From IMG/VR virus record IMGVR_UViG_3300014720_004370, positions 1 through 26,320 of that record: a stretch of DNA of 26,320 bases. One strand, written 5' to 3'. A program made the position numbers and the translations under genes. Below the pieces are notes generated by a model, which did no database searches, was not told the DNA's origin, and was given only the letters and a program-made list of their open reading frames with translations. Positions 1,109 to 23,863 of the stretch are shown in pieces (the stretch's first letter is position 1; each line of letters starts with the position of its first letter). Source of the DNA: a virus.

Positions 1109-1112
1109 TTAA

Positions 1113-1976: not shown

Positions 1977-1995
1977 ATAGATTATACAGGATTTA

Positions 1996-4959: not shown

Positions 4960-4961
4960 TT

Positions 4962-7084: not shown

Positions 7085-7099
7085 CTTTTAATTTTTTTA

Positions 7100-8950: not shown

Positions 8951-8985
8951 CTAATAAAACCTTTCTTTTATATATTTAGATTCGA
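8951..8985 (-). promoter_or_regulatory. Candidate promoter before the structural block
   Basis: The 35-nt gap before the 616-aa gene holds TATATAAA at 8974-8967 on the minus strand, 16 nt before the ATG, followed by AAAGG. It is one of the few true gaps in a train of overlapping genes and sits where the small accessory genes end and virion genes begin. It resembles T4-type late promoters (TATAAATA) in base content, but no -35 element or experimental start is visible. In AT-rich DNA such a box can arise by chance. Confidence 0.35.
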
Positions 8986-9300: not shown

Positions 9301-9307
9301 CCAGATA

Positions 9308-9490: not shown

Positions 9491-9495
9491 ATAAA

Positions 9496-10630: not shown

Positions 10631-10877
10631 TATCTTCTATTATTTTAATTTCAGTGAATCCGTCATTGGAATGGTAGCTAAGGTGGTCCTCGAGATCCTT
10701 CTCAATAATCCAGTGCTCCTCTTTTTTCTCTTTACCCTTGCCCTTTGGTATTATTCTTTCCCATATAATTATGTTATCCATAATCGGGTCAGGATGTCTA
10801 TAAAATCTGTGATATGATTTCATAGATGTTCCTGGGGCTCTAACCTCTATAATTTGTCCATATTGCAACTTTTCCAT
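10590..10877 (-). CDS. Small phage protein with lysine-rich tail, 95 aa
   Basis: No family is recognised. Residues 1-65 look like a small beta-rich domain (LQYGQIIEVRAPGTSMKSYH, then NIIIWERIIP and EHWIIEKD). The C-terminus is a short run of Lys, Asp and Ser (DKKSSKKKQ), probably unstructured. It is the first gene below the glycan cluster, after a 37-nt gap from the GT2 gene that holds a possible promoter. The end overlaps the following 215-aa gene by 41 nt if that gene uses its upstream start. No function can be assigned. Confidence 0.7.
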   Translation of the reverse strand: MEKLQYGQIIEVRAPGTSMKSYHRFYRHPDPIMDNIIIWERIIPKGKGKEKKEEHWIIEKDLEDHLSYHSNDGFTEIKIIEDNDKMDKKSSKKKQ

Positions 10878-10914
10878 TTTACTCTATTTTATAGGGCAAA
10901 TATATGGGATTATT
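10878..10914 (-). promoter_or_regulatory. Possible promoter between glycan cluster and small genes
   Basis: This 37-nt gap is the first real gap on the minus strand after the glycan genes. Read on the minus strand it contains TATATTTG at 10904-10897, matching the Bacteroidota -7 consensus TAnnTTTG, and CTATAAAATAG closer to the ATG. No TTTG sits at the expected 19-21 bp further upstream, so a complete Bacteroidota promoter is not shown. The call rests on location plus a half-site. Confidence 0.25.
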
Positions 10915-11619
10915 TCAAATTCCATTTATCACTAAAAATTTTTCTTCTCCGTATGTTATTCTATCGAGCTCTTCTCTGTTTTCTATAACAACCTCAGTTG
11001 TTCTTCCAAGTGTATTACTATGATGCTCAACTATGGAATTAGTCACAAGAAAATGATTGATCCCCTTTTTATTTAAAGTCATTACATAATCATTGTCGCT
11101 ATACCAATGTGTGTATCTTTCATCCAAATCCCCTATAATATCGTAAATTTTTCTTTTCTGTACTATACACCAGCCGGATATAGTTTCACGAATAACAAGT
11201 CCCGCATAAATACCGGTATTGATCCCGATTCCAATTTTAGGCTGGGTCATAGGACAAATCGGGTAAAAAGACATAAAATCAGGATTGGAATCTCCAAATT
11301 CCATTATATTAGAGATCCAATTCTCCTTAAAGATCAGGTCGTTATTACAAAGAGCAACATATTCCGATTTTCCATGTTTTCTGCCAAAATTTAAAAATTT
11401 ATGGTAACTATATGGCATTGGAGATTTTAAAGTCTCTATATTTTCATACTGAGTAAACTCTCTCTTCCAATCTATGCCCTCCTGAGATTCAACCACTATT
11501 GCATTAATATTGACATCAGATTCGGATTTAAAAAGGGAATCCAAACAATTACGGGTCAGACTAAAACATTCATCGTTCTTTGCGTAACTGACTATGATAA
11601 CGTCTACATTTCTCATCAT
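10915..11619 (-). CDS. Family 2-like glycosyltransferase (GT-A fold)
   Basis: This 234-aa protein is a GT-A sugar transferase. It begins VDVIIVSYAKNDE (the first strand and P-loop-like turn of GT2), with NN-D at residues 92-94 in the place of the metal-binding DxD (VALCNNDLIF). The acceptor-side block near 165-180 reads THWYSDNDYVM, where the S-D-N-D acidic residues would include the catalytic base, followed by a late HHSNTLGR. Donor and acceptor are unknown. It starts with ATGATG overlapping the kdsA stop by 4 nt (ATGA), so translation is coupled to kdsA. That places it functionally with the KDO genes, and a KDO-linked glycan is a reasonable but unproven guess. It is the last gene of the glycan cluster. 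Confidence 0.8.
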   Translation of the reverse strand: MMRNVDVIIVSYAKNDECFSLTRNCLDSLFKSESDVNINAIVVESQEGIDWKREFTQYENIETLKSPMPYSYHKFLNFGRKHGKSEYVALCNNDLIFKENWISNIMEFGDSNPDFMSFYPICPMTQPKIGIGINTGIYAGLVIRETISGWCIVQKRKIYDIIGDLDERYTHWYSDNDYVMTLNKKGINHFLVTNSIVEHHSNTLGRTTEVVIENREELDRITYGEEKFLVINGI

Positions 11620-12422
11620 GATTGGTATGCGTCTCTGATTCTAGAGGATTGTTCAAGAAAAGGTCCAAGCCTATCCAACTGCAGAATTGATTCGCTGTCG
11701 GATGCGGACATAGATGGAACTGGATGGACTTCAACAAATATTCCGTCTGCACCTGTTGCCATAGCAAAATTCATCATAGTTGAGACTAGGTCAGGATCTC
11801 CTCCTGTTGTACCAGAGCTTCTGTTAGGTTTTTGAAGACTGTGGGTGCAGTCAATAATGACCTTAGTGCCAATTGATCTTTTTATTCTGGGTACCACAGT
11901 GGCGTCGACTATTAATTCATTATATCCAAACGTTGTTCCTCTTTCACAGATCATATCTCCAATACCTCCAAAAGCCCTATATTTTTCAATCACATGAGCA
12001 CACGATTCAGGCGAAAGGAATTGTCCTTTCTTGATATTTGTTGGTTTGCCAGATTGGGCACAAGCTTTAATCAATTCAGTCTGTCTGCATAAAAAAGCAG
12101 GGATTTGGAGATGTGTGACGTACGGATCTACTAATTCAACATCAGTGGTTTCATGCACATCGGTCATCACAGGAATCTGATATTTTTTACCTATTTCATG
12201 TAGAATGCGCAGTGCTTCTCTCTCGTCTATGCCGGTAAAGCTCTTAGAAGATGTTCGGTTAGCCTTCTTATAGCTTCCCTTAAAAATGAGATCGAATCCG
12301 AATTGATTGGATTTTTTAATCAGATATTCTGCAATGATTGAAGAGGTGAAATAATCCTCAATCACACATGGACCTGCTATTAAAATTTTAGCCTCTTGAG
12401 ACCTCGCCGAGATATCCTCCAT
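11616..12422 (-). CDS. kdsA: 3-deoxy-8-phosphooctulonate (KDO-8-P) synthase, metal-dependent class
   Basis: The enzyme condenses phosphoenolpyruvate with D-arabinose 5-phosphate to KDO-8-phosphate, the precursor of the inner-core lipopolysaccharide sugar KDO. The 268-aa chain is full length and holds the family blocks in order: IAGPCVIE (15-22), FKGSYKKANRTSS (47-59), MTDVHE (86-91), LQIPAFLCRQTEL (105-117), NIKKGQFL (129-136), ERGTTFGYNELIVD (160-173), DCTHSLQKPN (191-200) and VEVHPVP (230-236). Cys19, His194, Glu231 and Asp242 line up with the four metal ligands of the Aquifex enzyme (C11, H185, E222, D233), so this is the metal-dependent class rather than the E. coli type, which has Asn at the Cys position. 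It overlaps kdsD by 35 nt. Later pathway steps (phosphatase KdsC, CMP-KDO synthetase KdsB) are not in the window. Confidence 0.95.
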   Translation of the reverse strand: MEDISARSQEAKILIAGPCVIEDYFTSSIIAEYLIKKSNQFGFDLIFKGSYKKANRTSSKSFTGIDEREALRILHEIGKKYQIPVMTDVHETTDVELVDPYVTHLQIPAFLCRQTELIKACAQSGKPTNIKKGQFLSPESCAHVIEKYRAFGGIGDMICERGTTFGYNELIVDATVVPRIKRSIGTKVIIDCTHSLQKPNRSSGTTGGDPDLVSTMMNFAMATGADGIFVEVHPVPSMSASDSESILQLDRLGPFLEQSSRIRDAYQS

Positions 12423-12972
12423 GGTGAAATTTGCTATATTGTTCTTTAGTGAATTTTCTTTTTTCTATGAGTCCTGCAACTATCATATCACAGATCACTG
12501 ACATACACGTGGTTGATGTTGTTGGGGTTAATCCTAAAGGACACACTTCCTCAACTGGCCCAAACTGAACGACTTCGGCGCACTTAATTTCAAAATGATA
12601 ACTCCTATTTCCAACTATGGCAACAATCAGATTTTTATATTCAAGGTTTTGCTGGATTAGCTCCACCAGCTGAATTATTTCGGTGGTTTTTCCTGAGTTT
12701 GAAAATACAAACACTATATCACCTGGCTGAATAATTCCAAGATCCCCATGCTGTGCTTCTGAAGGGTGCATGAAGGATGCAGATATTCCGGTTGAACATA
12801 AAGTTGTTGCAAAAGCATGTGCGACCTGTCCAGCCTTTCCCATACCAGAAGTTATTATTCTAGTTCTCTGGGTCATTCTTAAATCCAGCCAGTGCACTAG
12901 TTCGTCTATTCTTCTGACTGGTATCTTACTTATTGCATCAATTTCTTTCTGAATTATCTCGTGGTAGTTCAT
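12388..12972 (-). CDS. kdsD: D-arabinose-5-phosphate isomerase, SIS domain only
   Basis: This SIS-fold isomerase converts D-ribulose 5-phosphate to D-arabinose 5-phosphate, the substrate of KdsA next door. The 194 residues cover only the SIS domain; the two CBS domains of the E. coli enzyme are absent, as in other short forms. Visible blocks are SGMGKAGQVAHAFA (42-55), HPSEAQHGDLG (69-79), SNSGKTTEII (91-100), EEVCPLGLTPTTSTT (141-155) and FHHGGYLG (182-189). Lys46, His75, Glu98, Glu141/142 and His183/184 correspond to the active-site residues of E. coli KdsD. The CPLGLTPTTSTT block separates it from GmhA, the sedoheptulose-7-phosphate isomerase. It overlaps kdsA by 35 nt and gmd by 4 nt. The pairing of isomerase and synthase strengthens both calls. 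Confidence 0.9.
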   Translation of the reverse strand: MNYHEIIQKEIDAISKIPVRRIDELVHWLDLRMTQRTRIITSGMGKAGQVAHAFATTLCSTGISASFMHPSEAQHGDLGIIQPGDIVFVFSNSGKTTEIIQLVELIQQNLEYKNLIVAIVGNRSYHFEIKCAEVVQFGPVEEVCPLGLTPTTSTTCMSVICDMIVAGLIEKRKFTKEQYSKFHHGGYLGEVSRG

Positions 12973-13979
12973 GCTTTTCTTTTATTAATTTGAAAATCAA
13001 TCATCTCCTTTAGAATATCATATATCGTCATTTTAGATTCCCAGCCTAGATCATTCAGGGCTTTTGTGGAATCGCCGATTAAAAGGTCGACTTCCGCGGG
13101 CCTAAAATATTTTGGATCTATTGATATTATTGTTTTTCCCTGGTATAAGCATATTTCTGTAGCACCTTCTCCCTCCCATTCGATGTCCATACCTAATAAG
13201 AAAGCAGTTTTGTTCACTATTTCCCTAACAGTGTGGGTTTTTCCAGTGGATAGAACATAATCTTCAGGGGTTTCCCTCTGTAGCATTCTCCACATACCTT
13301 CGACATATTCTCTGGCGTGTCCAATATCCCTCTGCGCATCAAGATTGCCCAGCTGGAATGAATCCAATAGTCCAAGAGAAACATCGACCATGGAATCAAC
13401 TATTTTCTTCTCCATGAAGTTTTCACCTCTTCTGGGTGAAGTGTGATTAAACAGAATTCCATTACAAGCAAAAAGACCGTAGGATTCTTTATAATTCTTG
13501 ATAATCCAATATCCATAGAGTTTTGCAACTCCGTAAGGGGATCTGGGATAGAATGGGGTCTTCTCCGTCTGGGGAACCTCCTGAACCATCCCGAAAAGTT
13601 CAGATGTTGAAGCCTGATACAATTTAGTTTTTGGGGAATGAGTTTTAATAGCCTCTAGAATATTTAGTGTTCCTATTGCATCAACCTGTCCAGTATAATA
13701 TGGAATCTCAAAAGAGATCTTCACATGACTCTGTGCAGCTAAATTATATAATTCATCAGGTTGTAAATTGGAGACAAGATTGGATATGCTTACAGGATCC
13801 GTAATATCTGCATAGTGCCAATAAAAATTGGGATGTTCTCTAAGATGATCTATTCTCCATGTATTAAATGATGACGATCTACGAATTGTACCATGAACCT
13901 CGTAGCCTTTTTTAAGGAGAAGTTCCGCTAAATAACTACCATCCTGACCGTTAATTCCCGTGACTAAAGCTACTTTCAT
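12969..13979 (-). CDS. gmd: GDP-mannose 4,6-dehydratase
   Basis: The enzyme converts GDP-D-mannose to GDP-4-keto-6-deoxymannose with bound NADP, the first step to GDP-L-fucose. I start it at the ATG at 13979 (MKVALVTGINGQDG), which gives 336 aa, the usual length. The frame is open 30 codons further, but that extension lies inside fcl and has no counterpart in the family. The Rossmann motif G8-x-x-G11-x-x-G14 is intact, the catalytic STSE lies at 124-127 and Y149-x-x-x-K153 (YGVAK) follows. RRSSSFNT (33-40) and NHTSPRRGENF (178-188) are further family blocks. It overlaps the end of fcl by 29 nt and kdsD by 4 nt. The product feeds Fcl, encoded directly upstream. Confidence 0.95.
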   Translation of the reverse strand: MKVALVTGINGQDGSYLAELLLKKGYEVHGTIRRSSSFNTWRIDHLREHPNFYWHYADITDPVSISNLVSNLQPDELYNLAAQSHVKISFEIPYYTGQVDAIGTLNILEAIKTHSPKTKLYQASTSELFGMVQEVPQTEKTPFYPRSPYGVAKLYGYWIIKNYKESYGLFACNGILFNHTSPRRGENFMEKKIVDSMVDVSLGLLDSFQLGNLDAQRDIGHAREYVEGMWRMLQRETPEDYVLSTGKTHTVREIVNKTAFLLGMDIEWEGEGATEICLYQGKTIISIDPKYFRPAEVDLLIGDSTKALNDLGWESKMTIYDILKEMIDFQINKRKA

Positions 13980-14892
13980 ACATTTTTTTATAGAATTCAT
14001 ATGTGCTTTTAATTCCGTTTTCCAAAGAAATTTTTGGAAACCATCCGGTGGAAAATATTCTACTAACATCCATAACCTTTCTCATTGTTCCGTCGGGATA
14101 TGCAGGGTTAAATCTAATGCTGCCTTCATATCCGATTATTTCCTGGATTTTATATGCTAACTCTCTAATCGAAATGTCCTCGCCAGGACCAACATTGATT
14201 ATTTCAGATCCTGAGTAATTTTCGGAGAGAAATATTAGGGCATCCGCTAAATCATCAACATGTAGAAATTCTCTCATTGGCGTTCCTGTGCCCCAAATTT
14301 CAACTTCAGGTGATCCTGAGATTTTTGCCTCATGAAATTTTCGGATTAAAGCGGGGAAAACATGACTAGTATTAAGATCGAAATTATCTCCAGGTCCATA
14401 TAAATTAGATGGCATTACTGAGATAAAGTCGCATCCATATTGTTGATTGTATGATTGACACATTTTTATTCCAGCAATCTTGGCAATTGCGTAAGCATCA
14501 TTTGTGGTTTCTAATGGTCCAGTTAAAAGGTATTCCTCCTTGATAGGTTGGGGACATTCGCGAGGATAAATGCAAGACGATCCAAGAAATACCAATTTTT
14601 TGATTTCGTATCTATGACAGGCTTCTATGACATTAGTCTGTATACGAAGATTCTGTGTGATGTAGTCAGCCTTATAGTCATTGTTAGCCTTAATTCCACC
14701 AACTTTTGCTGCACAAAGAAATACCAGATCTGGCCTAAAATTTCTGAAATATTCGAAGACCCTTTCCCTCTTGGTTAGATCCAAATCATTTCTAACCGGA
14801 TGGAGAATCTCATGATTGGACCTTGTATTTTTATATTTTGCGAGTAGATTTGATCCAACTAAACCCCTAGATCCTAAAATTAATGTCCTCAT
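13951..14892 (-). CDS. fcl: GDP-L-fucose synthase
   Basis: The enzyme epimerises and reduces GDP-4-keto-6-deoxymannose to GDP-L-fucose with NADPH. Its 313 residues show the short-chain dehydrogenase layout: G7SRG10LVG13 near the N-terminus, KVGGI at 63-67, the catalytic Ser106 and Cys107 in GSSCIYPRECPQP, and Y134-A-I-A-K138. NLYGPGDNFD and MREFLHVDDLADA are also typical of the family. It lies immediately upstream of gmd with a 29-nt overlap and downstream of an FkbM-like gene with a 26-nt overlap. A GT10 fucosyltransferase, the expected user of its product, is encoded about 4 kb upstream in the same train. Nothing suggests inactivation. Confidence 0.95.
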   Translation of the reverse strand: MRTLILGSRGLVGSNLLAKYKNTRSNHEILHPVRNDLDLTKRERVFEYFRNFRPDLVFLCAAKVGGIKANNDYKADYITQNLRIQTNVIEACHRYEIKKLVFLGSSCIYPRECPQPIKEEYLLTGPLETTNDAYAIAKIAGIKMCQSYNQQYGCDFISVMPSNLYGPGDNFDLNTSHVFPALIRKFHEAKISGSPEVEIWGTGTPMREFLHVDDLADALIFLSENYSGSEIINVGPGEDISIRELAYKIQEIIGYEGSIRFNPAYPDGTMRKVMDVSRIFSTGWFPKISLENGIKSTYEFYKKMYESSFSHGN

Positions 14893-15667
14893 ACATCTTA
14901 ATTAAAATTTCATCCGGGATTATTATACTCTCGTCTTTTTTTCCAATATCAATTGTCATTTTGGGTAGATCTGGACTGCTGGCAACTATAATCCCGTCAC
15001 AACAATACGTGTTATCTAGATCCACTTCGGATATGATGTGATAATTATTATTCAGCAATCTATCTATACAAGAATAATGTATTTGATTGGAATGCGTTGA
15101 TATAAAAAAATAGTCTATAATACATTTTTTCATTGAATCCATGGATCCATCTAACATCTCTACTTCATTTCCTTGTATATCCGAATGTAGTATATCAACT
15201 CTTTCTATTTTTTGTTCATTTAAAAATTTATCTATAATTATCCCATCTTTGCCAACATGTGAATTAACGAAATTTCCTTTAAAATGATTAAGATCAAAGT
15301 TTCTTATACCACTTTCTATTTCTTCTTTGCCAGGTTCTATCATTATAGATTTTCCCTTGTTAAATTTTTTCAAAAAAAGCATTGAATAAAAAGCCCAATA
15401 AGATCCCAGTTCTATCATTATAGGATTTTCTTTCTTAATATTTTCTAGTATAACGGAAAAAAGATACTCCTCCTGCGGCTCATGAACCCCCCTGTTTAAT
15501 AAAAATATCTCAGAGAATTCATCATAGTAACAATTCTTGTATACCTTTAATCCATTATACATATGGACTATATCTTTCTCGCAGAATCCGGATATTTTAT
15601 CCCTTACAATCTTTTTATTTATAGGGTCCGAAATAATCTCCTTAAATCTGTTAAAATAAGCATTCAT
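14867..15667 (-). CDS. FkbM-like SAM-dependent methyltransferase (divergent)
   Basis: This 266-aa protein probably O-methylates a sugar hydroxyl with S-adenosylmethionine. The SAM site is IMIELGSYWAFYSM (about 83-96), where the usual D-x-G-A-N-x-G of FkbM enzymes is replaced by E-L-G-S-Y-W. The later block VDILHSDIQGNEVEMLDG (near 157-174) is a clear FkbM hallmark, and FFISTHS follows. The N-terminal 60 residues and the C-terminal 40 are not recognised. Its end overlaps fcl by 26 nt; it lies 1 nt from the next methyltransferase gene. Substrate is unknown, and the neighbours suggest a fucosylated glycan. A lack of methylation activity cannot be excluded because of the altered motif. Confidence 0.75.
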   Translation of the reverse strand: MNAYFNRFKEIISDPINKKIVRDKISGFCEKDIVHMYNGLKVYKNCYYDEFSEIFLLNRGVHEPQEEYLFSVILENIKKENPIMIELGSYWAFYSMLFLKKFNKGKSIMIEPGKEEIESGIRNFDLNHFKGNFVNSHVGKDGIIIDKFLNEQKIERVDILHSDIQGNEVEMLDGSMDSMKKCIIDYFFISTHSNQIHYSCIDRLLNNNYHIISEVDLDNTYCCDGIIVASSPDLPKMTIDIGKKDESIIIPDEILIKMYEDINFRI

Positions 15668-16294
15668 CTAATATGAAGGATATTTGGCATAAATTAAATT
15701 TATAGAATTCTTATGAATAAGTTCTAGAGAATAATTTTTGCAATAATCACTAAAAAATATTTCTCTTTCGGGCTCAGAATTCCATTCAATACAAACGATC
15801 CACGTTTTTTCTAAATTTATATGGGGAAGTATAATTTCGTCCATTCCTTCTGCATCCATGCTGATGAAATCAAAATTAATATCGGTAAATGGGTACTTTT
15901 TAACAGCGACATCTATTACTTCCCATTTTTCGTCTCCCCATCTTTTTGTTTCTTTTTCTAATATTGTAGATAAAAGTCCAGTGTCGTTGGATGATAGGTG
16001 GCTCCCGTTGCAATACATTTTAGAAATTCCATCTATATCTCCTATTGCAAAATTAAAAAGCATGTGGTTCTCTGGATAGAGTAGGCTAAGTTTTTTATAA
16101 CATGCTGGGTTCGGTTCAATGAAATATCCGGTTATATCCGGATATTTAACAATCAATGCCCGGGAATTAGATATCGTTTCGCCGTCATTTGCTCCTATAT
16201 CTAATATTTTATTAGAAAGAAATTGTGGATATTTATTTTTTAGCTCCTCATAAAATTTAAGGATAATCTCATCTTCGTCTAATTGGCTGTACAT
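15668..16294 (-). CDS. FkbM family methyltransferase
   Basis: A 208-aa SAM-dependent methyltransferase with the standard motif I, ILDIGANDGETISNS (about 30-44), and the post-motif acidic residue in GYFIEPNPACYKKL that binds the SAM ribose. The FkbM block FDFISMDAEGMDEIIL lies near 140-155. Family members methylate hydroxyls of sugars or polyketides. The chain is a bare catalytic domain with no extensions. Together with the two flanking methyltransferases it forms a three-gene run between the GT17 gene and fcl. It shares little obvious sequence with the 266-aa FkbM-like neighbour beyond the hallmark block, so the two may act on different positions. Confidence 0.85.
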   Translation of the reverse strand: MYSQLDEDEIILKFYEELKNKYPQFLSNKILDIGANDGETISNSRALIVKYPDITGYFIEPNPACYKKLSLLYPENHMLFNFAIGDIDGISKMYCNGSHLSSNDTGLLSTILEKETKRWGDEKWEVIDVAVKKYPFTDINFDFISMDAEGMDEIILPHINLEKTWIVCIEWNSEPEREIFFSDYCKNYSLELIHKNSINLIYAKYPSY

Positions 16295-16300
16295 AATTTA

Positions 16301-16957
16301 TTAAATTTTTATTATTCCCATACCACACGTATTACCGTAGATGAAATCTTCGCTTTTATGGGTATTTTTGATTTCATTCCAAAATTGGACAACACCAGGT
16401 GCACCTATCGATGCTATATCATGAAATATCATAATACCATCCTTATTAAGAAGAGGAATAGAATTTATATAATCAGATTTTACACCTTCGTAACTATGAT
16501 CCCCATCTATAAATATAACGTCATATTTTGTTTTACATCCTAATAAATATTGATCGGAATTCATATTAAAAAATTTTACATCCTCTATATCTTTAGATAG
16601 AAAATCTTTTATAAATTCTATCTCTTCTATTTTCTGTCCTATTGCTTGATAGTAAGAAAGATTATCTACAGCATGACTTACCAGTAAAGATTTTTTATTT
16701 ATATGGGAAAAGGTCATCCATGATCCGCCGTTTCCTATTCCAATCTCTAAATAAGACTTAGGCTGTTTCTCCAGTATTTTTAGAATCACATTAGAATACT
16801 CCTCCGGAACTTGCTGAAGTTTAAGATCCCCTGATTTTTCACATTTAAAATAATCCTTGTTGGAAGATCCCGCTTTATTTCTTACCCAATCAATTAGAAA
16901 TTCAGAATTAATATTTTCTGGAATCTCATTTAAGATATTTACACATTTCTGATTCAT
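16301..16957 (-). CDS. Class I methyltransferase, Methyltransf_24-like
   Basis: The 218-aa protein has SAM motif I as SYLEIGIGNGGSWMT (68-82) and the strongly conserved block YDVIFIDGDHSYEGVKSDYI (near 139-158) that marks Methyltransf_24 and cephalosporin-hydroxylase-like sugar methyltransferases. DGIMIFHDIA and GVVQFWNEI follow in the usual order. Acceptor is unknown; the surrounding genes make a sugar the best guess. The first 60 residues are probably a helical cap. It lies 4 nt after the GT17 gene and 6 nt before the FkbM gene. The motif match is clear, the substrate call is inference. Confidence 0.85.
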   Translation of the reverse strand: MNQKCVNILNEIPENINSEFLIDWVRNKAGSSNKDYFKCEKSGDLKLQQVPEEYSNVILKILEKQPKSYLEIGIGNGGSWMTFSHINKKSLLVSHAVDNLSYYQAIGQKIEEIEFIKDFLSKDIEDVKFFNMNSDQYLLGCKTKYDVIFIDGDHSYEGVKSDYINSIPLLNKDGIMIFHDIASIGAPGVVQFWNEIKNTHKSEDFIYGNTCGMGIIKI

Positions 16958-16961
16958 ATTT

Positions 16962-17720
16962 TTAATTTTTTATTAGATGCTGATATTTTTCGATATTGTT
17001 AATTATGTATTCAGGAAAAGATTCATCTATTTCAACTATGTGGTATTTAATATAATCTCTTCCAAATATATCTTTAAGATCGTCTACATTTTTTTCTATA
17101 GTAGCGTTGTTAATCTTCTCTGGGTCATTCATATCTTGGTGAGCATAAGCATCTACTTTATCCTTGATTTTTTGAGCCCCTCCTAAAAAACTCCAGTGCC
17201 ATCCAGCATCTCTTATTATTGTTTTTTGCATGCCAGCACAGGCTCTCATTCTATAAGTTTCTATTTTTTTTAATTCGCTAATTTTAAACATAGAAACAAT
17301 TTGAAAATCTATACTTTGTTTACAATTAAGATAATAGTAATATCCCTTAGTTTCTATGATAGCTGGTAATTCCTCGGTAAAGGTGACTTTTCTATAGTCC
17401 GGTATTTCGTCGCAATCAGCAAGAATCATTATATCATTATTCGAGAAATTGGATAAAACATATCTACCTAAACTATTTCTCGATTCAAACTCGTTGTGCC
17501 AAGCACTTGTGCCACAATTATATTCTACTATTTTTATTCTATCCCTGTATTTAGAAAATCTACTTTCTAAATTTTCACTTAGATATAAGGGTTTATCCTT
17601 GCCAGAAAATGTTTTTCTGGATTCACTTATCACCCAATAATCAATATAAGGAGAAGTTATCTCCAGTCTAATTTCTAATAAATCCAGTTCATTGAAAAAA
17701 GGGAAACATTCTATTTTCAT
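16962..17720 (-). CDS. Glycosyltransferase family 17-like protein
   Basis: This 252-aa protein matches GT17, the family of the eukaryotic bisecting GlcNAc transferase, which also has bacterial and phage members. The opening block CFPFFNELDLLEIRL (5-19) and SRKTFSGKDKPLY (34-46) are the family's most recognisable segments. ILADCDEIPD (99-108) supplies the metal-binding acidic cluster, YYYYLNCKQS follows, and DAGWHWSFLGGAQKIKDKVD (about 165-185) with YAHQD closes the catalytic domain. The usual family role is transfer of N-acetylglucosamine, but donors of phage members are unknown. It is 1 nt from the DUF5672 gene. The family call is firm, the donor is not. Confidence 0.85.
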   Translation of the reverse strand: MKIECFPFFNELDLLEIRLEITSPYIDYWVISESRKTFSGKDKPLYLSENLESRFSKYRDRIKIVEYNCGTSAWHNEFESRNSLGRYVLSNFSNNDIMILADCDEIPDYRKVTFTEELPAIIETKGYYYYLNCKQSIDFQIVSMFKISELKKIETYRMRACAGMQKTIIRDAGWHWSFLGGAQKIKDKVDAYAHQDMNDPEKINNATIEKNVDDLKDIFGRDYIKYHIVEIDESFPEYIINNIEKYQHLIKN

Positions 17721-17721
17721 A

Positions 17722-18381
17722 TTATTTACAATTATTTATATAATTAACAGCGTTATCCAAAAGTGATTTTGCATGGAAGCCAAAACAATTATTTATATTA
17801 TGCTGATCGTCGAGGGGAAATTCTATTGCAAATTTTCTAGCAACTTCCACTGGAGCTATCTTTATGCCTTGGGATTCGAGAATATGTCTATTAGTACAAA
17901 CTAGGTAGGTGTCTTCATTAGACATAGTTCTTGGAAGTTTACTGGAGGCTTCTAAAAACTTTTTGCTTCTCAAAGAGAATCCGCCGTTTCCAACCTGTTG
18001 TCCCTCCTTGGGCCACCCGATATAAAGAGGCCATGGGGCTCCAATATAATCATAATCATAAAAAGAATCTTCCCATAGATATGGATTTAGAATAAATCCA
18101 TCATCTTGAAAAACAAGACAGTAATCACTATCTATGTGATTATTTAATTCGGTAACGCAAAAATTGGAGTATTGTCCAATTCCCATTGGATCTATTAAGG
18201 TATTTTTAATTCCATCAATATTAAGATCAAATGTAGTAAAAACTTTTACATCATAGAAATTTACCCGGTTAATCATAAAATCAATGATTTTTTGGTATCT
18301 TAGGGTTCTTTCAGAATCTTCTATCCTGCCATCCAAGCAGAATAGTGTTACATTACTAAGATCTATTTTTGAGAAATCCAT
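17722..18381 (-). CDS. DUF5672-type glycosyltransferase-like protein
   Basis: A 219-aa protein that carries the DUF5672 blocks: YSNFCVTELNNHIDSDYCLV, then FQDDGFILNP (the acidic pair fits a GT-A metal site), YDYIGAPWP, GNGGFSLRSKKFLEAS, NEDTYLV and CFGFHAKSLL. DUF5672 proteins are found in glycan clusters and fold like glycosyltransferases, though biochemical data are sparse. There is no membrane segment or signal peptide. The start overlaps the end of the GT2-like gene by 19 nt. Function as a sugar transferase is inferred from fold signatures and context. Confidence 0.8.
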   Translation of the reverse strand: MDFSKIDLSNVTLFCLDGRIEDSERTLRYQKIIDFMINRVNFYDVKVFTTFDLNIDGIKNTLIDPMGIGQYSNFCVTELNNHIDSDYCLVFQDDGFILNPYLWEDSFYDYDYIGAPWPLYIGWPKEGQQVGNGGFSLRSKKFLEASSKLPRTMSNEDTYLVCTNRHILESQGIKIAPVEVARKFAIEFPLDDQHNINNCFGFHAKSLLDNAVNYINNCK

Positions 18382-19085
18382 TCTATTATTTTTTTAGGAA
18401 CTTCCCCTCTAAAATCCTCGGGGGATAGATCAAAATTATTCTGCAATCTGCCTTTAAAAACATCCATTCCTCTATAAAAAGTAGATTGATTTTTATCATC
18501 AATGGCATCCTTATCGTGATAAAGCTTAGTATAATGAAGATGAGCAAATTCCACATCTGATGCCTCAACAACACATCCTAAAATACTGGCAACGCATGTG
18601 AGTTCGGTATCACAGAACATATGTTCATAGGATGGATTATATATGTAGGGAAAGCTATCAAGATATTCCCTCGAAAATATAGGCATTGTGATAAGGTCAT
18701 TACTCATCCCATCCGATGTTTTAATTACATATTTTCCCGACAATTCAGAAGCAATATCTCTCAGTTTATCATCCCAGTATTCAAAGCAATCTGTATCATC
18801 GGAAAAAACCAAAATTAAATCTCCATCTATATGTGGTTTAATAGAATTTATAGCCTCTACCGTACATGTATTAGGATTAATTACTACATCGATTCTCGTA
18901 TTATATTCAACTGATAATTTATCCATTAACTCCAAATATTGATTAGTGGTAGGATCGCTGTTATCTATGGATATAATCACTCTTATAGATTCCGTGTTAT
19001 TTGCATTTTCCAGCCATTTCTTAACAACCCTATACATTCTTACGGGCCTTTGCCTGGATGCAGCAACTATGTTTATTTTAATCAT
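18363..19085 (-). CDS. GT2-like glycosyltransferase (GT-A fold)
   Basis: This 240-aa protein opens with INIVAASRQRPVRMYRVVKK, a GT-A first strand and loop. A second strand (IRVIISIDNSDP) and ILVFSDDTD with D96-D97-T98-D99 as metal-binding acids follow. A stretch FCDTELTCVASILGC (near 155-170) may hold the catalytic acidic residue, and the closing region is polar. Donor and acceptor are not readable. It overlaps the GT10 gene by 8 nt and the DUF5672 gene by 19 nt, so the three are probably made in a fixed ratio. The glycosyltransferase call rests on fold motifs and neighbours. Confidence 0.75.
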   Translation of the reverse strand: MIKINIVAASRQRPVRMYRVVKKWLENANNTESIRVIISIDNSDPTTNQYLELMDKLSVEYNTRIDVVINPNTCTVEAINSIKPHIDGDLILVFSDDTDCFEYWDDKLRDIASELSGKYVIKTSDGMSNDLITMPIFSREYLDSFPYIYNPSYEHMFCDTELTCVASILGCVVEASDVEFAHLHYTKLYHDKDAIDDKNQSTFYRGMDVFKGRLQNNFDLSPEDFRGEVPKKIIEWISQK

Positions 19086-19923
19086 AATTTTTCACTTTAT
19101 TAAAAATCAAAGAATCCGCAGAATGTAATTTAGTAACAATCTCCAGGTTTTCCCTGATATATTCGATTTTTGAATCGTAAAGATCTTTATTGAGAAGACT
19201 CAAATTAAAATTATCACTCCATTTAATTATTCCGTTAATATTAAAGTCTTCCTCTATTTTATCAGTTCCCCAGTATATCGGAATTACACCCAAAGCAAAG
19301 CAATCGGTTATTTTTTCGGTATAATACTTATCAATTTTTGCATTCTCAAAAACTATAGAGAACATATACGGAGCAAGGGCTTCTTCCTTGGATCTCCACC
19401 AGTCTCCGTTAGGCCCTATTCCCGTTCCTATCCTTGTAGTTCCAGCTGCTCCCCCAAAAACATCTGCAGAATTTTTTAATCTCGATGCTATCTCCAGTCT
19501 TTTTTTATGCCCCGTGGTCATATTCTTGGAGCTGGCTATCATTGAGCAAATCCTACTCTTCTCTGGTATTCTATAATTTTCCGGTCTAGTCCAAGGAAGA
19601 TTAGAGCCAGGAGGATTAAAGATAAAAAAGCTAGGATCCCTAGATATGATCTCGTGATCACAGGTAAAAATAGCAGTATAATGATTTTTATATCTTGGGT
19701 AATTATGTATTAGATCATTTTTAAGAGATGGAAGGACCTCAGAAGATTCGCAGAACCATCCAAAATTACCTCTGGCTGGACCTGTGTGATTCGTCATATT
19801 ATTATCAATCCATACCGTTGCTATTCCTTCTCCTTTTGACCATTCAAAATTGCTAGGTTTAAAAGATGAGCAGGACGAGTACTCAACAGGAAATGGAGAC
19901 CACGTTGTTTTTAGTTTATTCAT
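19078..19923 (-). CDS. GT10-like alpha-fucosyltransferase
   Basis: The 281-aa protein has the signature C-terminal motif of family GT10: MFSIVFENAKIDKYYTEKIT (187-206), then DCFALGVIPIYWG (207-219) and FNINGII. This region binds GDP-fucose in Helicobacter and human alpha-1,3/4-fucosyltransferases. The N-terminal acceptor half is variable as usual; FTCDHEI and SMIASSKNMTTGHKKRLEIA are recognisable family-like blocks. The donor, GDP-L-fucose, would be supplied by gmd and fcl in the same operon, which makes the call unusually well supported by context. There is no membrane anchor or heptad-repeat tail like those in H. pylori enzymes. Linkage (alpha-1,2, 1,3 or 1,4) and acceptor cannot be read. 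Confidence 0.85.
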   Translation of the reverse strand: MNKLKTTWSPFPVEYSSCSSFKPSNFEWSKGEGIATVWIDNNMTNHTGPARGNFGWFCESSEVLPSLKNDLIHNYPRYKNHYTAIFTCDHEIISRDPSFFIFNPPGSNLPWTRPENYRIPEKSRICSMIASSKNMTTGHKKRLEIASRLKNSADVFGGAAGTTRIGTGIGPNGDWWRSKEEALAPYMFSIVFENAKIDKYYTEKITDCFALGVIPIYWGTDKIEEDFNINGIIKWSDNFNLSLLNKDLYDSKIEYIRENLEIVTKLHSADSLIFNKVKNYD

Positions 19924-20750
19924 ACGATTATAAAATCTTTATTAGTGTAATTAAATGGGCGATGGGGATTAAGTTCCTTCATTATATTCATTATAGATCT
20001 CTTATTAGGGGCTTCTGAATTGATATTTTCTAAAAATCTTCCATTATGAAAATCAGATCCGCTAAGTTTAATTTTGACAGTGGATCTAAATTGGGGTATT
20101 ATTGAATGCTTTATGGCATCATGATCTAATTCCGGCTGTCCAGTTTCAACTTTTTCTGTGCAATGATCAGCCCATGCAGTTATAACTCTAAAAGCTTCAC
20201 TAGTGTTTCTTATAAATATAGGGGATGCAACAAATCCATTTATATCGTTAGTATACGACACAAGACCAAGATCAAATTCATCTGATAAATTACAAAAGGA
20301 AGCTAGGGATTCTTTTAAATTTGTGTCTCCGTCCACCCAAACAACGTCTTTTGAATATTTTTTGATTATCTCTTGTATGAAAACGGGTTTGTAACAGCAA
20401 TTCTGAAAATATTCCCTATCTGATTCATATTGTCTAATTAGATAATTTAATCCAAAAAAATGAACTTTTCTTACCAGTTCTGTTATGCGGGAGGAATAGA
20501 AATTTGATCCTATAGGATCAGATATAAATGATATGATCATAGGTCCATCATTGTCTATCCTACTCCATTCATTCAATATATTTCTATCCCTTGAATTTTT
20601 TAAGGGCGGAAATAAACTCATGTTTTCTTTTTTATTTGTTAAGGAATTTGGGAGTTCATTATTTGGGACGTTAGAAATATTTCTGTGATTTTTATTTGAA
20701 ATTTCCCTGGTTACCCTCATTCTTCTTCTTGATTCAAAATCCATAATCAT
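19920..20750 (-). CDS. GT-A nucleotide-diphospho-sugar transferase-like protein, paralogue with 70-aa N-terminal extension
   Basis: The catalytic part (residues 71-276) is a paralogue of the next gene upstream. Both have ...KDVVW(V/I)D-x-D near the donor site (here D140-G-D142), INGxxASP, a W-A-D/G-D segment and L/F-DHD followed by K-x-x-I-(I/M)P. The pattern fits the PF03407 nucleotide-diphospho-sugar transferase group. Residues 1-70 (MDFESRRRMRVTREIS and a long Asn-rich, polar stretch) have no counterpart in the two paralogues and look disordered. The start overlaps the upstream gene by 17 nt, and the end overlaps GT10 by 4 nt (ATGA). Sugar and acceptor are unknown. Confidence 0.75.
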   Translation of the reverse strand: MIMDFESRRRMRVTREISNKNHRNISNVPNNELPNSLTNKKENMSLFPPLKNSRDRNILNEWSRIDNDGPMIISFISDPIGSNFYSSRITELVRKVHFFGLNYLIRQYESDREYFQNCCYKPVFIQEIIKKYSKDVVWVDGDTNLKESLASFCNLSDEFDLGLVSYTNDINGFVASPIFIRNTSEAFRVITAWADHCTEKVETGQPELDHDAIKHSIIPQFRSTVKIKLSGSDFHNGRFLENINSEAPNKRSIMNIMKELNPHRPFNYTNKDFIIV

Positions 20751-21375
20751 TAATGTTTAATTTGTTAAAATTTAAGCTTCTAGAACTATTTTTATTAATT
20801 ACCACTCTCATCTGGACATCTTTATCGGGAATTCTTGATATTCCATTCATAATAATAGATCCATCCGTATAGTCTATATACCTCTCCCCGCTACCAAGGA
20901 TCTGCGCGGAAATTTTTCCAGCATATTTAGGCATGATCTCATACTTTAGAACGTCATGATCGAAATCTATTTCTCCTCCTCTAATTTTACTAGAACACAC
21001 ATCGCCCCAATCTTTTAGAAATTCCAAACACTTGCCATTATACTTGAATCCCAATGGTGATGCCTTTATTCCATTTATTTCACCTGTGTGAGAGGCAAAA
21101 AGAATATCAGAGTCCCACTTTTTTAGATTATTGGGAGCTGAGAAAATTTGTGTATCAACATCTATCCAAACAACGTCTCTATTAAACTCCATGATTTTTT
21201 CAAGTATGTATAGGGGCTTATAAAGAGTGTTCTTCCAGTATGCACCTAAATCCTTTACATTTTCAATATGAATATTTAAACCTAATGATTCACATGATTT
21301 TTTTAGTGATTCTGATGCTGTCTTATAATATTGGTTCCCAGTATAATAAGAGATGCAAATAGCATTATTCTCCAT
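20734..21375 (-). CDS. GT-A nucleotide-diphospho-sugar transferase-like protein, paralogue 2
   Basis: A compact 213-aa GT-A protein. It opens ICISYYTGNQYYKTASESL; KDLGAYWKNTLYKP (41-54) and D72-V-D74 in VVWIDVDTQIF follow. INGIKASPLGF and FDHDVLKYEIMPKY are shared with the 276-aa neighbour. The DVD sits at the same residue numbers as in the 204-aa protein at the head of the operon, and YYT-x-N and DLG-x-x-x-KNT-x-YK are shared with it as well. The three therefore descend from one ancestor. No membrane segment is present. A sugar-transfer role follows from the DxD and fold pattern; specificity is unknown. Confidence 0.75.
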   Translation of the reverse strand: MENNAICISYYTGNQYYKTASESLKKSCESLGLNIHIENVKDLGAYWKNTLYKPLYILEKIMEFNRDVVWIDVDTQIFSAPNNLKKWDSDILFASHTGEINGIKASPLGFKYNGKCLEFLKDWGDVCSSKIRGGEIDFDHDVLKYEIMPKYAGKISAQILGSGERYIDYTDGSIIMNGISRIPDKDVQMRVVINKNSSRSLNFNKLNINDYGF

Positions 21376-21622
21376 CGATAATAGTTTTTAAATATTCATC
21401 CAAGCTCATCTCAGCTCCCATGAATAGAACTCTATGTAGCATTTCTCCCCTGTCCATCATTTCGGGTGTAGTGACATCAATTAGTCTTGGAAAAGCTGAT
21501 ATATCTATAAGATATTGATTTATATCAGACAAAATTGATTTTCTGGTATCATCATTATTAGTCTCGAAGGCATAACCACTTAGTATGTCATTGATGTCCT
21601 GATAAATTTTAAATTTTTCCAT
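21365..21622 (-). CDS. Small protein of unknown function, faintly like a tail-sheath C-terminal segment, 85 aa
   Basis: The protein sits between two glycosyltransferase genes, overlapping the downstream one by 11 nt and following the upstream one by 15 nt. It has no glycosyltransferase motif. The order ILSGYAFETNNDDTRKSILS, then TTPEMMDRGEML resembles the end of contractile-tail sheath proteins, which often read F-E-x-N-x-x-x-T-R-x-x-I followed by N-T-P-x-x-I-D-R/N-x-E-L. The resemblance is short and judged by eye. If genuine it would be a detached copy of that segment. If not, it is simply a small unknown helical protein. Translation is supported by its fit in the overlapping gene train. Confidence 0.6.
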   Translation of the reverse strand: MEKFKIYQDINDILSGYAFETNNDDTRKSILSDINQYLIDISAFPRLIDVTTPEMMDRGEMLHRVLFMGAEMSLDEYLKTIIDGE

Positions 21623-21637
21623 TATATTGGTTTTTTA

Positions 21638-22369
21638 TTATAGTCCTAATCTTCTGAAAAGATCCCCGCAAATTTCCCTATTGTTTGAAAGGGGTCTGGG
21701 AATATGACAGTCAATATAATCATATGGATTATAATCACCCTTCGGCCAGATAGCCTTATCCAGTCTCCTAGTAGCATATTTTTCTTCGATCCAGCCCCTT
21801 TCAAGATGTTTGATTTGTATACCCGGTTTAATTCTGGATTGGTTATAAAAAAACTTTTGATCCGTACCAAACCTGATATTCATTCTCATTAATCTCCTGA
21901 GAAAAACCTTATGATCCGAATCACTAAGATCCAGCAAATCAGTAAAACTCCGTGGATCACCAGCGAGATAACACATGGGGTACTGTGGATTAGTTCTGTA
22001 CCATCTATATTGAATAACATCAGAGCTGTATGACACTATACCCCTATCTCCTATCTGGCTCGCACCATTTTCATAATACTCCCGAGATATAGGAAGCATA
22101 TCCATATCTGAAATGATAAAAGGTGCATCTAATATTCTTGCACCCCAAAATCTTATGCACTGAGCTTGTTGGGCAATATTCCATTCTGGGATCGATTCCA
22201 GATAAATTGTTCTACCATATTCCGTCACATTTTGGGAAGGACCTTGGGAATCAATATAAATTAGAACTGGTTCTATTCCAAGCTTCTGCCACATAGCTGC
22301 CACATAGGGCCAAAAATCCAGATACTCGGGATTAGCATTAGAACTCACTACGGCGTACTTAATCTTCAT
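21638..22369 (-). CDS. GT-A glycosyltransferase-like protein, 243 aa
   Basis: The protein begins KIKYAVVSSNANPEYLDFWP and has IEPVLIYID as its second strand. It then shows RFWGARILDAPFIISDMDML, where D88-M-D90 fits the GT-A metal-binding DxD. FGTDQKFFY (near residue 167) and the later H-I-P-R are further conserved-looking points. It is not an obvious paralogue of the three PF03407-like neighbours but has the same overall fold pattern. Its start overlaps the 204-aa gene by 4 nt (ATGA), so translation is coupled. No substrate can be given. Confidence 0.75.
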   Translation of the reverse strand: MKIKYAVVSSNANPEYLDFWPYVAAMWQKLGIEPVLIYIDSQGPSQNVTEYGRTIYLESIPEWNIAQQAQCIRFWGARILDAPFIISDMDMLPISREYYENGASQIGDRGIVSYSSDVIQYRWYRTNPQYPMCYLAGDPRSFTDLLDLSDSDHKVFLRRLMRMNIRFGTDQKFFYNQSRIKPGIQIKHLERGWIEEKYATRRLDKAIWPKGDYNPYDYIDCHIPRPLSNNREICGDLFRRLGL

Positions 22370-22980
22370 CTACGGATTATATTTCTGGCAGGTCTTTTAT
22401 GAACGTTACGGCTCTCCTGAAAGTGTTCTATGATAGGTTTAAGCCCAGGGTACATATTTCGTGTGTGATCGAAGATATAAGTGTACTCCGGAGGAAGATT
22501 ACAATAAACTAGATCTGGATTCTCCCGAACAGCAGTTTGCATGTGTTTTTGCTCCCATGTTTCGGGTTTAGATCTCTCGGCGGGTATTTTTGAGTTGATC
22601 TCTATCCACCTTTTTACCAGTGACACAGTCTTAAGATTGTTTCTTAAAAAAATTGTCCCTGATAATGCTTCGTCCTTTCTCCATCTAAAATCTTCCGTCC
22701 TATATGCTATATCACAATCTAGAGAATTAAAAAGATCTGGAAAGCTTCTAAAGGCAGCGTCAACATCCACATAGACTAAATTTTGATCTAGCTTCTCGAG
22801 ACACTCCAGAATGAAATGTGCTTTATAATGTGTGTTCTTTTCCCAGCTTCCAAGGTCTCCTATGGGTTTAATGTAATGCGGAATTGAAAAGTTTTGGAGA
22901 GATTCCCGTAGTCTACCAGCTAAACTTTGGTAGTTTGAGTTTTGGGTGTAATAAGCTATAACTAAAAATTGGGGGCTCAC
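22366..22980 (-). CDS. GT-A nucleotide-diphospho-sugar transferase-like protein, paralogue 1, GTG start
   Basis: This 204-aa protein is the first gene of the minus-strand train. It starts with GTG at 22980; no ATG lies nearby in frame, and the first residues (SPQFLVIAYYTQNSNYQSLA) align with the start of the 213-aa paralogue, which supports this start. GDLGSWEKNTHYKAHFILE and D72-V-D74 (LVYVDVDAAF) are shared with that protein. ALSGTIFLRNN and WEQKHMQ are distinctive. The C-terminus is basic (HKRPARNIIRR). A TATATAAT box ends only 9 nt before the GTG. The fold and DxD support sugar transfer; donor and acceptor are unknown. Confidence 0.75.
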   Translation of the reverse strand: MSPQFLVIAYYTQNSNYQSLAGRLRESLQNFSIPHYIKPIGDLGSWEKNTHYKAHFILECLEKLDQNLVYVDVDAAFRSFPDLFNSLDCDIAYRTEDFRWRKDEALSGTIFLRNNLKTVSLVKRWIEINSKIPAERSKPETWEQKHMQTAVRENPDLVYCNLPPEYTYIFDHTRNMYPGLKPIIEHFQESRNVHKRPARNIIRR

Positions 22981-23134
22981 AAGTAATATATTATATAATA
23001 GAATTCATCCCCGGGATTTACTTCGTAAAAATTTTAGTCTGCCCTGGGTGGAAAGTTTCAGTTTCTTGAAAATTTTTTTTAGAAAGAAATAAAACCGCTC
23101 TTTCTATATATAATACGTATCATCCTAATGAACA
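22981..23134. promoter_or_regulatory. Divergent intergenic region with a TATATAAT box for each direction
   Basis: This is the longest gene-free stretch in the window (154 nt) and must hold the start of the minus-strand train and of the plus-strand 242-aa gene. On the plus strand TATATAAT lies at 23107-23114, 20 nt before the ATG. On the minus strand TATATAAT lies at 22997-22990, 9 nt before the GTG. The middle (about 23010-23060) is less AT-rich, with CCCCGGG at 23009-23015. No inverted repeat long enough for a terminator or riboswitch was seen. The boxes resemble -10 or late-promoter elements; no -35 element is obvious. Confidence 0.5.
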
Positions 23135-23863
23135 ATGAAAATACTAAAGCCTTATTGGTTTCTAGAGAAGCCGGTCGATAAAGAACACAAATATTATGTG
23201 TTAATGGCTTATTTGCAATCCATTGAAAAGGACTTCTCCAATGGAGAATATGTTAAACAGCTAACTAATGTACTTAGAATTCAAAAGGATCTTTGGAGCT
23301 TTAAGAACAAGGGTGTGCTATCAGTGAAATCAAATTCACATTTAACCGAAAGGGAATTGGAAAAAACCCACGATCTCATAGATGATTTTTTACTTTCAGA
23401 TGAAAGAGATGAAATAATAGAGGAGTCATTATCCACTATAGAAAAGTTTCTAGGAAAACATGACTCAGTAATTAGAGAATATGATCAAATGGTAGAGGTA
23501 ACTCATTCAGGATCTATAAATCAGACATGGGATAGGGGATTTCTCATTATCAGAAAAAACCTGGAGAGTATGCTTAGAATATTTTCTTGGAGTTTTTCTA
23601 TTATTAAGATAGACGGGAATGAAAGCGTAGCCCTATTAATGACCGAGCTTCTTGATCCTGTGTGTGGATTTACCGAGGATGACAGAGAAGTTAAGAAGTT
23701 TTTAATACAGAATTTAAAATCTTCTATAATTAGTCCCAATGATGCTATTCTTTTTGGAAAAATCACTGAAGAGCTAGAACTGGATCTTGGTGTGGATCTA
23801 TCCAAAGAAAAAGCTGTTGATATAATAGTGAAAAACTATAAGAAATCAATCGATCTCCTTTAG
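23135..23863 (+). CDS. Phage protein of unknown function, 242 aa
   Basis: I recognise no family. The protein is mostly helical and charged, with a tryptophan-containing N-terminal part (KPYWFLEKP, LWSFKNKG), a Glu/Asp-rich helical centre (DLIDDFLLSDERDEIIEESL) and a helical C-terminus. There is no membrane segment or catalytic motif I can point to. It is a single-gene plus-strand unit behind its own candidate promoter. Its last 18 nt overlap the 3' end of the minus-strand 180-aa gene, so the two are tail to tail with no terminator between them. Confidence 0.75.
   Translation: MKILKPYWFLEKPVDKEHKYYVLMAYLQSIEKDFSNGEYVKQLTNVLRIQKDLWSFKNKGVLSVKSNSHLTERELEKTHDLIDDFLLSDERDEIIEESLSTIEKFLGKHDSVIREYDQMVEVTHSGSINQTWDRGFLIIRKNLESMLRIFSWSFSIIKIDGNESVALLMTELLDPVCGFTEDDREVKKFLIQNLKSSIISPNDAILFGKITEELELDLGVDLSKEKAVDIIVKNYKKSIDLL

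Follow-up and report, generated by a model that had tools for sequence, protein, structure and literature searches.

Among the closest described counterparts of the locus analysed here are the P-SSM2-type 'LPS' (lipopolysaccharide) clusters of jumbo cyanophages, T4-like myoviruses with glycosyltransferases and NAD-dependent epimerases that are polymorphic between relatives (PMC7824862; here and below, citations refer to excerpts of the papers named). Freshwater Bacteroidota jumbo phages, namely the bS21 phages and the moraphages, combine predicted Bacteroidota hosts with sugar genes: lipopolysaccharide-type genes occur in Bacteroidetes lake phages, for which prevention of superinfection was suggested (Chen et al. 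2022, PMC9723584), and four glycosyltransferase orthogroups are among the common genes of the moraphages described in 2025 (PMC12619734). Bacterial capsule and O-antigen loci have a variable middle between conserved flanks and are exchanged as whole loci by recombination in the flanks (PMC6249986). Giant viruses of eukaryotes (PBCV-1, Mimivirus, CroV) encode GMD/GMER, transferases and methyltransferases, with clade-specific clusters in Mimivirus and a predicted 3-deoxy-D-manno-octulosonate (KDO) pathway in CroV and Fadolivirus (PMC9614988). We analysed the IMG/VR virus record IMGVR_UViG_3300014720_004370 (26,320 bp, hereafter the window), which carries a ~12-kb sugar locus of 17 consecutive minus-strand open reading frames (ORFs) at 10915-22980.

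Judged by its sequence, this is an O-antigen-like, cassette-switching glycan locus carried by a phage. Exchange of the interior between constant border genes is the main point, and it lay beyond the sight of the original prediction made from the window alone. The window is a piece of a T4-like phage, probably of Bacteroidota. It aligns to IMGVR_UViG_3300013132_005385 (G001, 119,741 bp), an incomplete sister contig of the same phage, from position 14,544 at 100% and 99.995% identity, with 98% over the last 0.9 kb, where an acidic repeat lies; a search of phage records for near-identity to window positions 1-25000 gave no match. Portal, tail sheath, terminase, UvsX and DnaB are among the 25 of 78 families listed for G001 (68 proteins scanned). 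Its terminase matches 2,501 phage records, the best being the uncultured huge phages LR745206, LR756502, LR756500 and LR756504 (36-39%), followed by Tenacibaculum phage PTm1 and Sphingomonas phage PAU (33%). The tail protein w3 matches 28 records (Prevotella 15, uncultured 6, Tenacibaculum 5, Flavobacterium 1, Chryseobacterium 1). Because of these terminase and w3 matches, the host is most likely a member of Bacteroidota.

The lineage of the window resembles the cyanophages in its T4-like background and polymorphic sugar genes, but the host is different, and the border protein w26 matched one of 50,697 phage records at 1e-5, the uncultured LR756511, which is not a cyanophage. Cyanophage S-SCSM2R has its kdsA and kdsB in the company of oxygenase, glycosyltransferase and photosynthesis genes, and no tail gene is annotated within the 24.7 kb viewed. 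With the freshwater jumbo phages the lineage shares a predicted Bacteroidota host, sugar genes and a ribosomal protein S21 family match (G001:105196-105348, minus strand; 37.6 bits, above the cut-off; family in 3 of 18 contigs searched), which in G001 lies on the terminase strand, unlike that of the bS21 phages; the parts of those reports covered describe no constant-border locus or cassette exchange. The likeness to bacterial capsule and O-antigen loci is one of architecture, whereas this locus is phage-carried, its borders are themselves sugar genes, and no flippase, polymerase or ligase was recognised in it. Enzymes of the giant-virus kinds are also present in the window; capsid glycans are established for PBCV-1 (PMC9614988) and only proposed for the window's phage. 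Within the excerpts covered, the open-licence literature searched holds no earlier account of cassette exchange or of a constant-border cassette locus in a phage.

Constant borders and exchanged interiors

Scans of viral contigs with alignments yielded 36 loci for w11, 15 for w26 and 33 for the NUDIX protein w8. Thirteen contigs with both borders, together with contigs G020 and G021, make up 15 complete loci, 14 of them distinct (3300042863 and 3300042446 are identical in the compared regions); G024, G034, G036 and G037, with only a distant w11 homologue in the part fetched, were left out. The complete loci hold 15-27 genes (at least 80 aa) over 11.6-22.4 kb, 306 genes in total with 9 on the opposite strand, and 271 of 291 gaps within them are at most 20 nt. 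Presence and median identity are given here for the 14 complete loci besides the window's. Constant genes are w27 (14/14, 65.5%) and w26 (14/14, 72.5%) at the front and KdsD (14/14, 60%) and w11 (14/14, 52%) at the back, with Gmd (at least 40% identity in 12/14; median 73%) and KdsA (11/14, 50%) mostly kept. Fcl reaches at least 40% in 8/14. The interior genes w16-w21 each occur in 0-5 of the 14, w19 being restricted to the window's locus (0/14), and w22, w23 and w24 in 7/14 each (for w22 and w24, at 40% identity or more). GC content is 0.295-0.358 in the interior, 0.366-0.405 in w26, w27 and w12-w15, and 0.336 in w11. The synteny search in related phages that the original prediction had called for thus shows the architecture to recur, so that it is more than chance.

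Pairs of related contigs show the transfer of interiors as blocks. In G020 and G021 the flank blocks are 94-97% identical; those in front stop where w26 ends (25030), those behind begin where fcl starts (34521), and the interiors between these points gave no blastn match at 1e-5. Likewise, 3300035670 and 3300044953 have flank blocks of 80-91% and interiors that share little beyond the fcl-gmd end. The pair 3300032220 and 3300032238 is the mirror image of G020 and G021: its flanks average 72-73%, yet 10,370 bp are common at 98.0%, and together the two pairs show block transfer. Against a strict exchange between the borders, however, this 98% block begins inside the interior, after the w24-w23-GT10 part, and exchange is therefore not always border to border. 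The core of G020 recurs in 3300035670 (79% over 99%) and that of G021 in 3300010885 (73% over 92%); because both exchanged interiors recur in other contigs, chimaeric assembly is an unlikely cause. Taken together, these alignments show constant border enzymes on either side of an interior whose transferases and modifying enzymes are exchanged blockwise among related phages.

The interiors differ in content as well. The type found in contig G003 adds genes for GT11, GT25, UDP-glucose dehydrogenase-type, CTP_transf_3-cupin and class-III aminotransferase proteins. Among 49 unlabelled cassette proteins (dereplicated from 76), 37 Pfam families were matched, and the 25 listed include WbqC, PhyH, hexapeptide transferases, carbamoyltransferase, GT6, PIG-L and CmcI. 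These further enzymes (WbqC to CmcI; GT11, GT25 and DegT) fit sugar decoration. At the start of the loci of 3300032313_001910 and 3300044953_000377, one or more extra ORFs lie between a w27-like 5' fragment and the full w27; they end HNH-like, as judged by eye. A homing nuclease at a cassette border could promote exchange.

A low-GC, mosaic interior would also be produced by a neutral hotspot that gathers passing sugar genes without any common product. It is very improbable that the locus is such a patchwork, since w26, w27 and Gmd have higher median identities than 10 of the 11 tail-side genes w0-w10 (the exception is w1, 75%), the genes are closely packed and the donor-sugar genes are kept. 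The argument from identity is limited in that KdsD, w11 and KdsA are not above the tail-side genes.

Enzymes of the locus and predicted supply of donor sugars

In the window, the 16 junctions of the locus range from -119 to +15 nt, 37 nt separate it from the first tail-side gene and the divergent upstream gene starts 154 nt away; transcription runs from w27 to w11 in descending number (Table 1). Nine genes of the locus encode known or putative glycosyltransferases and three encode methyltransferases; the others are for Gmd, an Fcl-like protein, KdsA, a one-domain KdsD and an orphan. The original prediction of sixteen genes on one strand is right in coordinates, strand and packing and one short in its count, having missed w25, for which no Pfam or PHROG family was found and which is in 0/14 other loci. 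Its nine glycosyltransferase-like genes are indeed nine, of unequal standing: only w19, w22 and w27 pass the cut-off of a glycosyltransferase-type Pfam family, w11 and w21 are assigned by PHROG, and w20, w23, w24 and w26 are more tentative. The three methyltransferases and the GT10 fucosyltransferase that it named were both recovered by Pfam, and w22 aligns with the PDB alpha1,3-FucT 2nzw (E 2.7e-9 over 66 residues).

Table 1 Features of the window and their assignments.
Feature	Position	Strand	Assignment
Tail/baseplate block	1..10877	-	gp5-like hub w1 (1113-1976), repeat protein w2, NUDIX w8, w10; kept in relatives
Promoter-like motif	10885..10916	-	Between sugar genes and tail gene w10; GAAATAAT...TATAAAATA
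w11	10915..11619	-	GT2-like glycosyltransferase, back border adjoining tail genes; PHROG 22332 6.6e-18, Pfam below cut-off
w12 KdsA	11616..12422	-	KDO-8-phosphate synthase; NF003543 294.8 bits (cut-off 242)
w13 KdsD	12388..12972	-	Single-SIS-domain arabinose-5-phosphate isomerase-like, back border; PDB 3etn 1e-50
w14 Gmd	12969..14069	-	GDP-mannose 4,6-dehydratase; TIGR01472 477 bits (cut-off 415)
w15 Fcl	13951..14892	-	GDP-L-fucose synthase-like; edge of back border in part of lineage
w16	14867..15667	-	FkbM-type methyltransferase; Pfam 30.8 bits
w17	15668..16294	-	FkbM-type methyltransferase; Pfam 40.2 bits
w18	16301..16957	-	Methyltransf_24; Pfam 52.8 bits
w19	16962..17720	-	GT17 glycosyltransferase; Pfam 83.3 bits
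w20	17722..18381	-	DUF5672; Pfam 77 bits
w21	18363..19085	-	GT2-like glycosyltransferase; PHROG 14945 6.3e-13, Pfam below cut-off
w22	19078..19923	-	GT10 fucosyltransferase-like; Pfam 30.2 bits (cut-off 23.9)
w23	19920..20750	-	Glycosyltransferase-like; hidden Markov model (HMM) matches to w24/w27
w24	20734..21375	-	Glycosyltransferase-like; HMM match to w27 family
w25	21365..21622	-	85-aa orphan ORF
w26	21638..22369	-	Putative GT-A glycosyltransferase with invariant DxD; front border
w27	22366..22980	-	First gene; PF03407 nucleotide-diphospho-sugar transferase; Pfam 24.7 bits (cut-off 22)
Conserved non-coding element	23001..23060	-	Upstream of w27; core CTAAAATTTTTAC-GAA-GTAAATCCC at 23013-23037
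w28	23135..23863	+	Divergent conserved gene upstream of locus

The more tentative members have some support of their own. The function of DUF5672 is not named by Pfam, and w20 is a probable glycosyltransferase. Proteins w23, w24 and w26 gave no Pfam match at 0.01; HMMs built from relatives place w23, w24 and w27 in a single family. For w26 a GT-A-like fold is predicted: D88 and D90 are invariant across 13 aligned rows, and the AF2 model (pLDDT 72.6) matches GT-A nucleotide-sugar enzymes. A closer identity of w26 with the PBCV-1 capsid glycosyltransferase 2p72 or the fucosyltransferase WrtF was rejected, as the VIA-align rows tie with many GT-A folds.

Of the two GDP-fucose genes that had been predicted, Gmd is above its cut-off, and Fcl scores 443 bits against NF047922, below the cut-off of 500, with 4.2e-99 to the PDB GDP-fucose synthetase 1bsv. 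The gmd ORF overlaps fcl by 119 nt, and the true start of Gmd is probably Met31. Five loci have no close Fcl, and in four of these (two identical) a DegT-type aminotransferase gene adjoins Gmd. Of the two KDO-8-phosphate genes, KdsA passes one cut-off (Table 1) and KdsD is a candidate. KdsA is below two further cut-offs (TIGR01362, 276.5 against 314 bits; NF009109, 457); the gene was recovered from 23 of 45 contigs, many being truncated. Both Fcl and KdsA align with the respective solved enzyme over most of their length. KdsD consists of a SIS domain only, is below the KpsF/KdsD/GutQ cut-offs and matches the KdsD/GutQ models in their first part only; 3etn is likewise a single-domain protein. 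At 36816-37613 of 3300010885_070871, a kdsA match has one internal TGA, owing to gene decay, the end of a frame or an error in sequencing. The claim of a nearly self-contained program was not supported: KdsB (CTP_transf_3) and KdsC had no match in the incomplete 119,741-bp G001, and GDP-mannose would come from the host. Of 6 contigs, 3 carry CTP_transf_3 (two of the 3 have identical compared regions) and 1 has a KdsC match below the cut-off.

As for the origin of these genes, KdsA matched 14 records of the phage collection, most at 26-37% in Listeria-, Staphylococcus-, Enterococcus- or Acinetobacter-labelled contigs; most of these low-identity contigs may be bacterial, and we took LR756500 and S-SCSM2R to be clear cases. 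Of 503 bacterial KdsD relatives, the best 80, a choice biased to near kin, are all titled as Bacteroidota lineages, and 5 of these 80 loci contain KdsA. One of them, L162 (uncultured Bacteroidetes, isolate Umea3_bin-1751; Umea3 is presumably a lake), has kdsD and kdsA as an overlapping pair in the order of the window. In a quick KdsD tree (23 phage and 79 bacterial sequences), the phage rows lie on one side of a branch with an SH-aLRT of 87, which is not strong, and the phages and L162 group at 100, the window row and L162 being long branches. This pattern fits one old acquisition of the KDO genes from a Bacteroidota host.

KdsD-like isomerases of T4-like phages (RB69-type) may serve DNA arabinosylation, and the transferases could accordingly decorate phage DNA. 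KdsD is indeed in 15/15 complete loci and KdsA in 12/15; KdsD matches 268 phage records, several of them annotated as arabinose 5-phosphate isomerase in T4-sized genomes, and a thymidylate-synthase-family match lies at the end of G020. However, that family was found in only 1 of 14 incomplete contigs and TET/JBP in 0 of 14 (the TET search was also positive in no control genome). KdsA and the acyl-, carbamoyl- and deacetylase-type enzymes better suit a surface glycan, making DNA hypermodification improbable.

Putative promoters and flanking genes

The original prediction took the collinearity of sugar and tail genes as a sign of shared late transcription. The continuity itself is real, the 37-nt gap leading into a block with a gp5-like hub and the tail linkage being kept through the lineage. 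The shared transcript fares less well. Of 30 contigs, 28 have the pattern GAAATWAT-N8-20-TATA immediately ahead of w10 (19 of 21 when only distinct sequences are counted), compared with a mean of 0.10 and a maximum of 3 in letter shuffles; 14 of 274 other spaced ORFs are preceded by it. Under a stricter definition the pattern is present once in G001 and four times in G003, once before an ORF. This frequency makes it plausible that the tail block has its own start or processing site. A second conserved element, TGAAACT...CTAAAATTTTTAC-NNN-GTAAATCCC...TATGAAT, lies 21-80 nt upstream of w27 in an alignment of 14 contigs; its TTTAC-NNN-GTAAA core is palindromic as judged by eye, and the 12 IMG/VR records hit by a degenerate core pattern all belong to this lineage and were already in the set. 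Rfam had no match in the window or in this upstream sequence and RNAalifold predicted no pairs, and we therefore call it an element and not an RNA. Both consensus motifs are putative promoters.

Other promoter searches gave less. Motifs of the T4 late promoter showed no enrichment ahead of spaced genes in either G001 or G003, and sigma-70-like sites at 7000-26320 were at chance level (84 against 79.8). The motif TANNTTTG, which we take to be Bacteroidota-like, is present in 5 of the 41 upstream regions of G001 (mean 0.9 and maximum 4 in shuffles) and in 4 of the 51 of G003 (mean 2.5, maximum 8). Of the occurrences of GATATATA, 16 of 22 in G001 and 23 of 30 in G003 fall no more than 60 nt ahead of an ORF start, and this motif is likely a phage promoter or start signal.

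Among the flanking genes, w28 is in 14/14 other loci (median 41%) and had no Pfam or PHROG match at 0.01 and no AlphaFold/Foldseek match at E<=0.001. On the tail side, w1 is a gp5-like baseplate hub by PHROG 430, with Phage_base_V barely at its cut-off, and w2 (1996-4959) is a 987-aa protein with tandem 23-aa repeats (DEYxxVPGxDLGxPNR-like), possibly an extended fibre or a glycan acceptor. An acidic EEEDT repeat protein is encoded at 25837-26319, where the window and G001 have different repeat arrays (98%, 878 columns for 863 bases). This protein, three others in the window (23846-24388, 24850-25572, 25569-25820) and proteins of G003 begin with M-x-I-x-F-x-x-F-x-x-E. Such starts presumably resemble T4 capsid-targeting sequences. 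In G003 a loose form of the pattern is found at 21 of 152 N-termini (2.7 expected from internal Met; mean 5.1 and maximum 16 in 500 shuffles) and a strict form at 6 (mean 1.3, maximum 6); the 6 loose and 1 strict cases among 128 N-termini of G001 are not above shuffles. These proteins are possibly packaged internal proteins.

Candidate acceptors of the glycan

We favour a phage-encoded, type-switching glycan locus with cytosolic assembly and a virion protein as the acceptor, and put the probability of this reading at roughly 0.5. No membrane export protein, flippase, polymerase or ligase was recognised among the 306 locus proteins by a crude hydropathy method without a positive control set (the limit of 1.6 was passed by 7 of 306, maximum 1.80; the window's 17 proteins reach 1.47), which makes cytosolic assembly probable. 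Since the locus also travels with the tail block, a virion protein is the likeliest acceptor, at about even odds; an acceptor other than virion, host surface or DNA is very unlikely. The host of CroV is a protist. For this virus, a Kdo cluster that includes methyltransferase domains has been predicted (PMC9614988). A KDO supply therefore need not mean lipopolysaccharide.

In the proposed mechanism, Gmd and Fcl would convert host GDP-mannose to GDP-L-fucose, and KdsD and KdsA would convert host ribulose-5-phosphate to KDO-8-phosphate, to be finished by host KdsC and KdsB. Soluble glycosyltransferases would assemble the oligosaccharide in the cytosol, with the constant w27, w26 and w11 joining it to a constant acceptor through a linkage that does not vary, and with the exchangeable enzymes making the type-specific part, which in the window's phage would probably be fucosylated and methylated. 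Surface-sugar types would change by recombination, allowing escape from something that recognises particle sugars, or shielding of the tail.

Several points weigh against this reading, whose weakest step is the choice of acceptor. Both options of the original prediction, virion proteins and host lipopolysaccharide, still stand, and the sequence does not decide between them. Lipopolysaccharide classically contains KDO, and its core can also be extended by soluble transferases; we know of no virion glycosylation in this lineage. In the 462-kb uncultured phage LR756500, homologues of w27, KdsA and KdsD lie within about 9 kb of one another in the stretch 121091-141849 of LR756500.1, ~198 kb from the w3 homologue, and tail linkage is thus not universal. 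KdsA is missing from 3 of the 15 complete loci, the promoter-like motif before w10 argues against one sugar-tail transcript, and the absence of export proteins rests on the uncontrolled hydropathy method and on 25 of the 37 cassette Pfam families.

It is also possible, at clearly less than even odds, that the locus remodels the host surface: lipopolysaccharide or capsule would be extended or capped, which would block superinfection and keep progeny off debris, and the cassettes would track host surface types. The KDO supply genes and the likely Bacteroidota host agree with this, and a core-type extension needs no phage flippase. Similar published phages, the bS21 phages, were interpreted in this way (PMC9723584), which also counts against a virion acceptor, and so were the jumbo cyanophages, whose clusters are polymorphic between related viruses (PMC7824862). 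However, the locus adjoins the tail block in 27 of the 30 contigs with w10, where w10 is preceded by w11 or by a methyltransferase gene, MT42, located between w11 and w10. The failure to recognise a polymerase, flippase or ligase points the same way, although those of the host could serve.

Extending the virion-protein reading, we tentatively propose, at slightly less than even odds, that these phages have serotypes: particles would be coated with a KDO- and deoxysugar-containing glycan that is switched, like an O-antigen, by homologous cassette exchange between constant border genes, and this variation would be kept because something on hosts or in the environment recognises particle sugars. 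Clusters of glycan genes in phages, which are frequently classed as accessory metabolic genes, gain a testable architecture of constant, perhaps acceptor-side, enzymes and exchangeable type-specific ones. Phage pairs with near-identical flanks and different cassettes are natural experiments on what phage-made sugars do in host range, superinfection exclusion and particle recognition. If it is true that the glycan sits on the virion, phages have serotypes that arise in the way bacterial antigens do.

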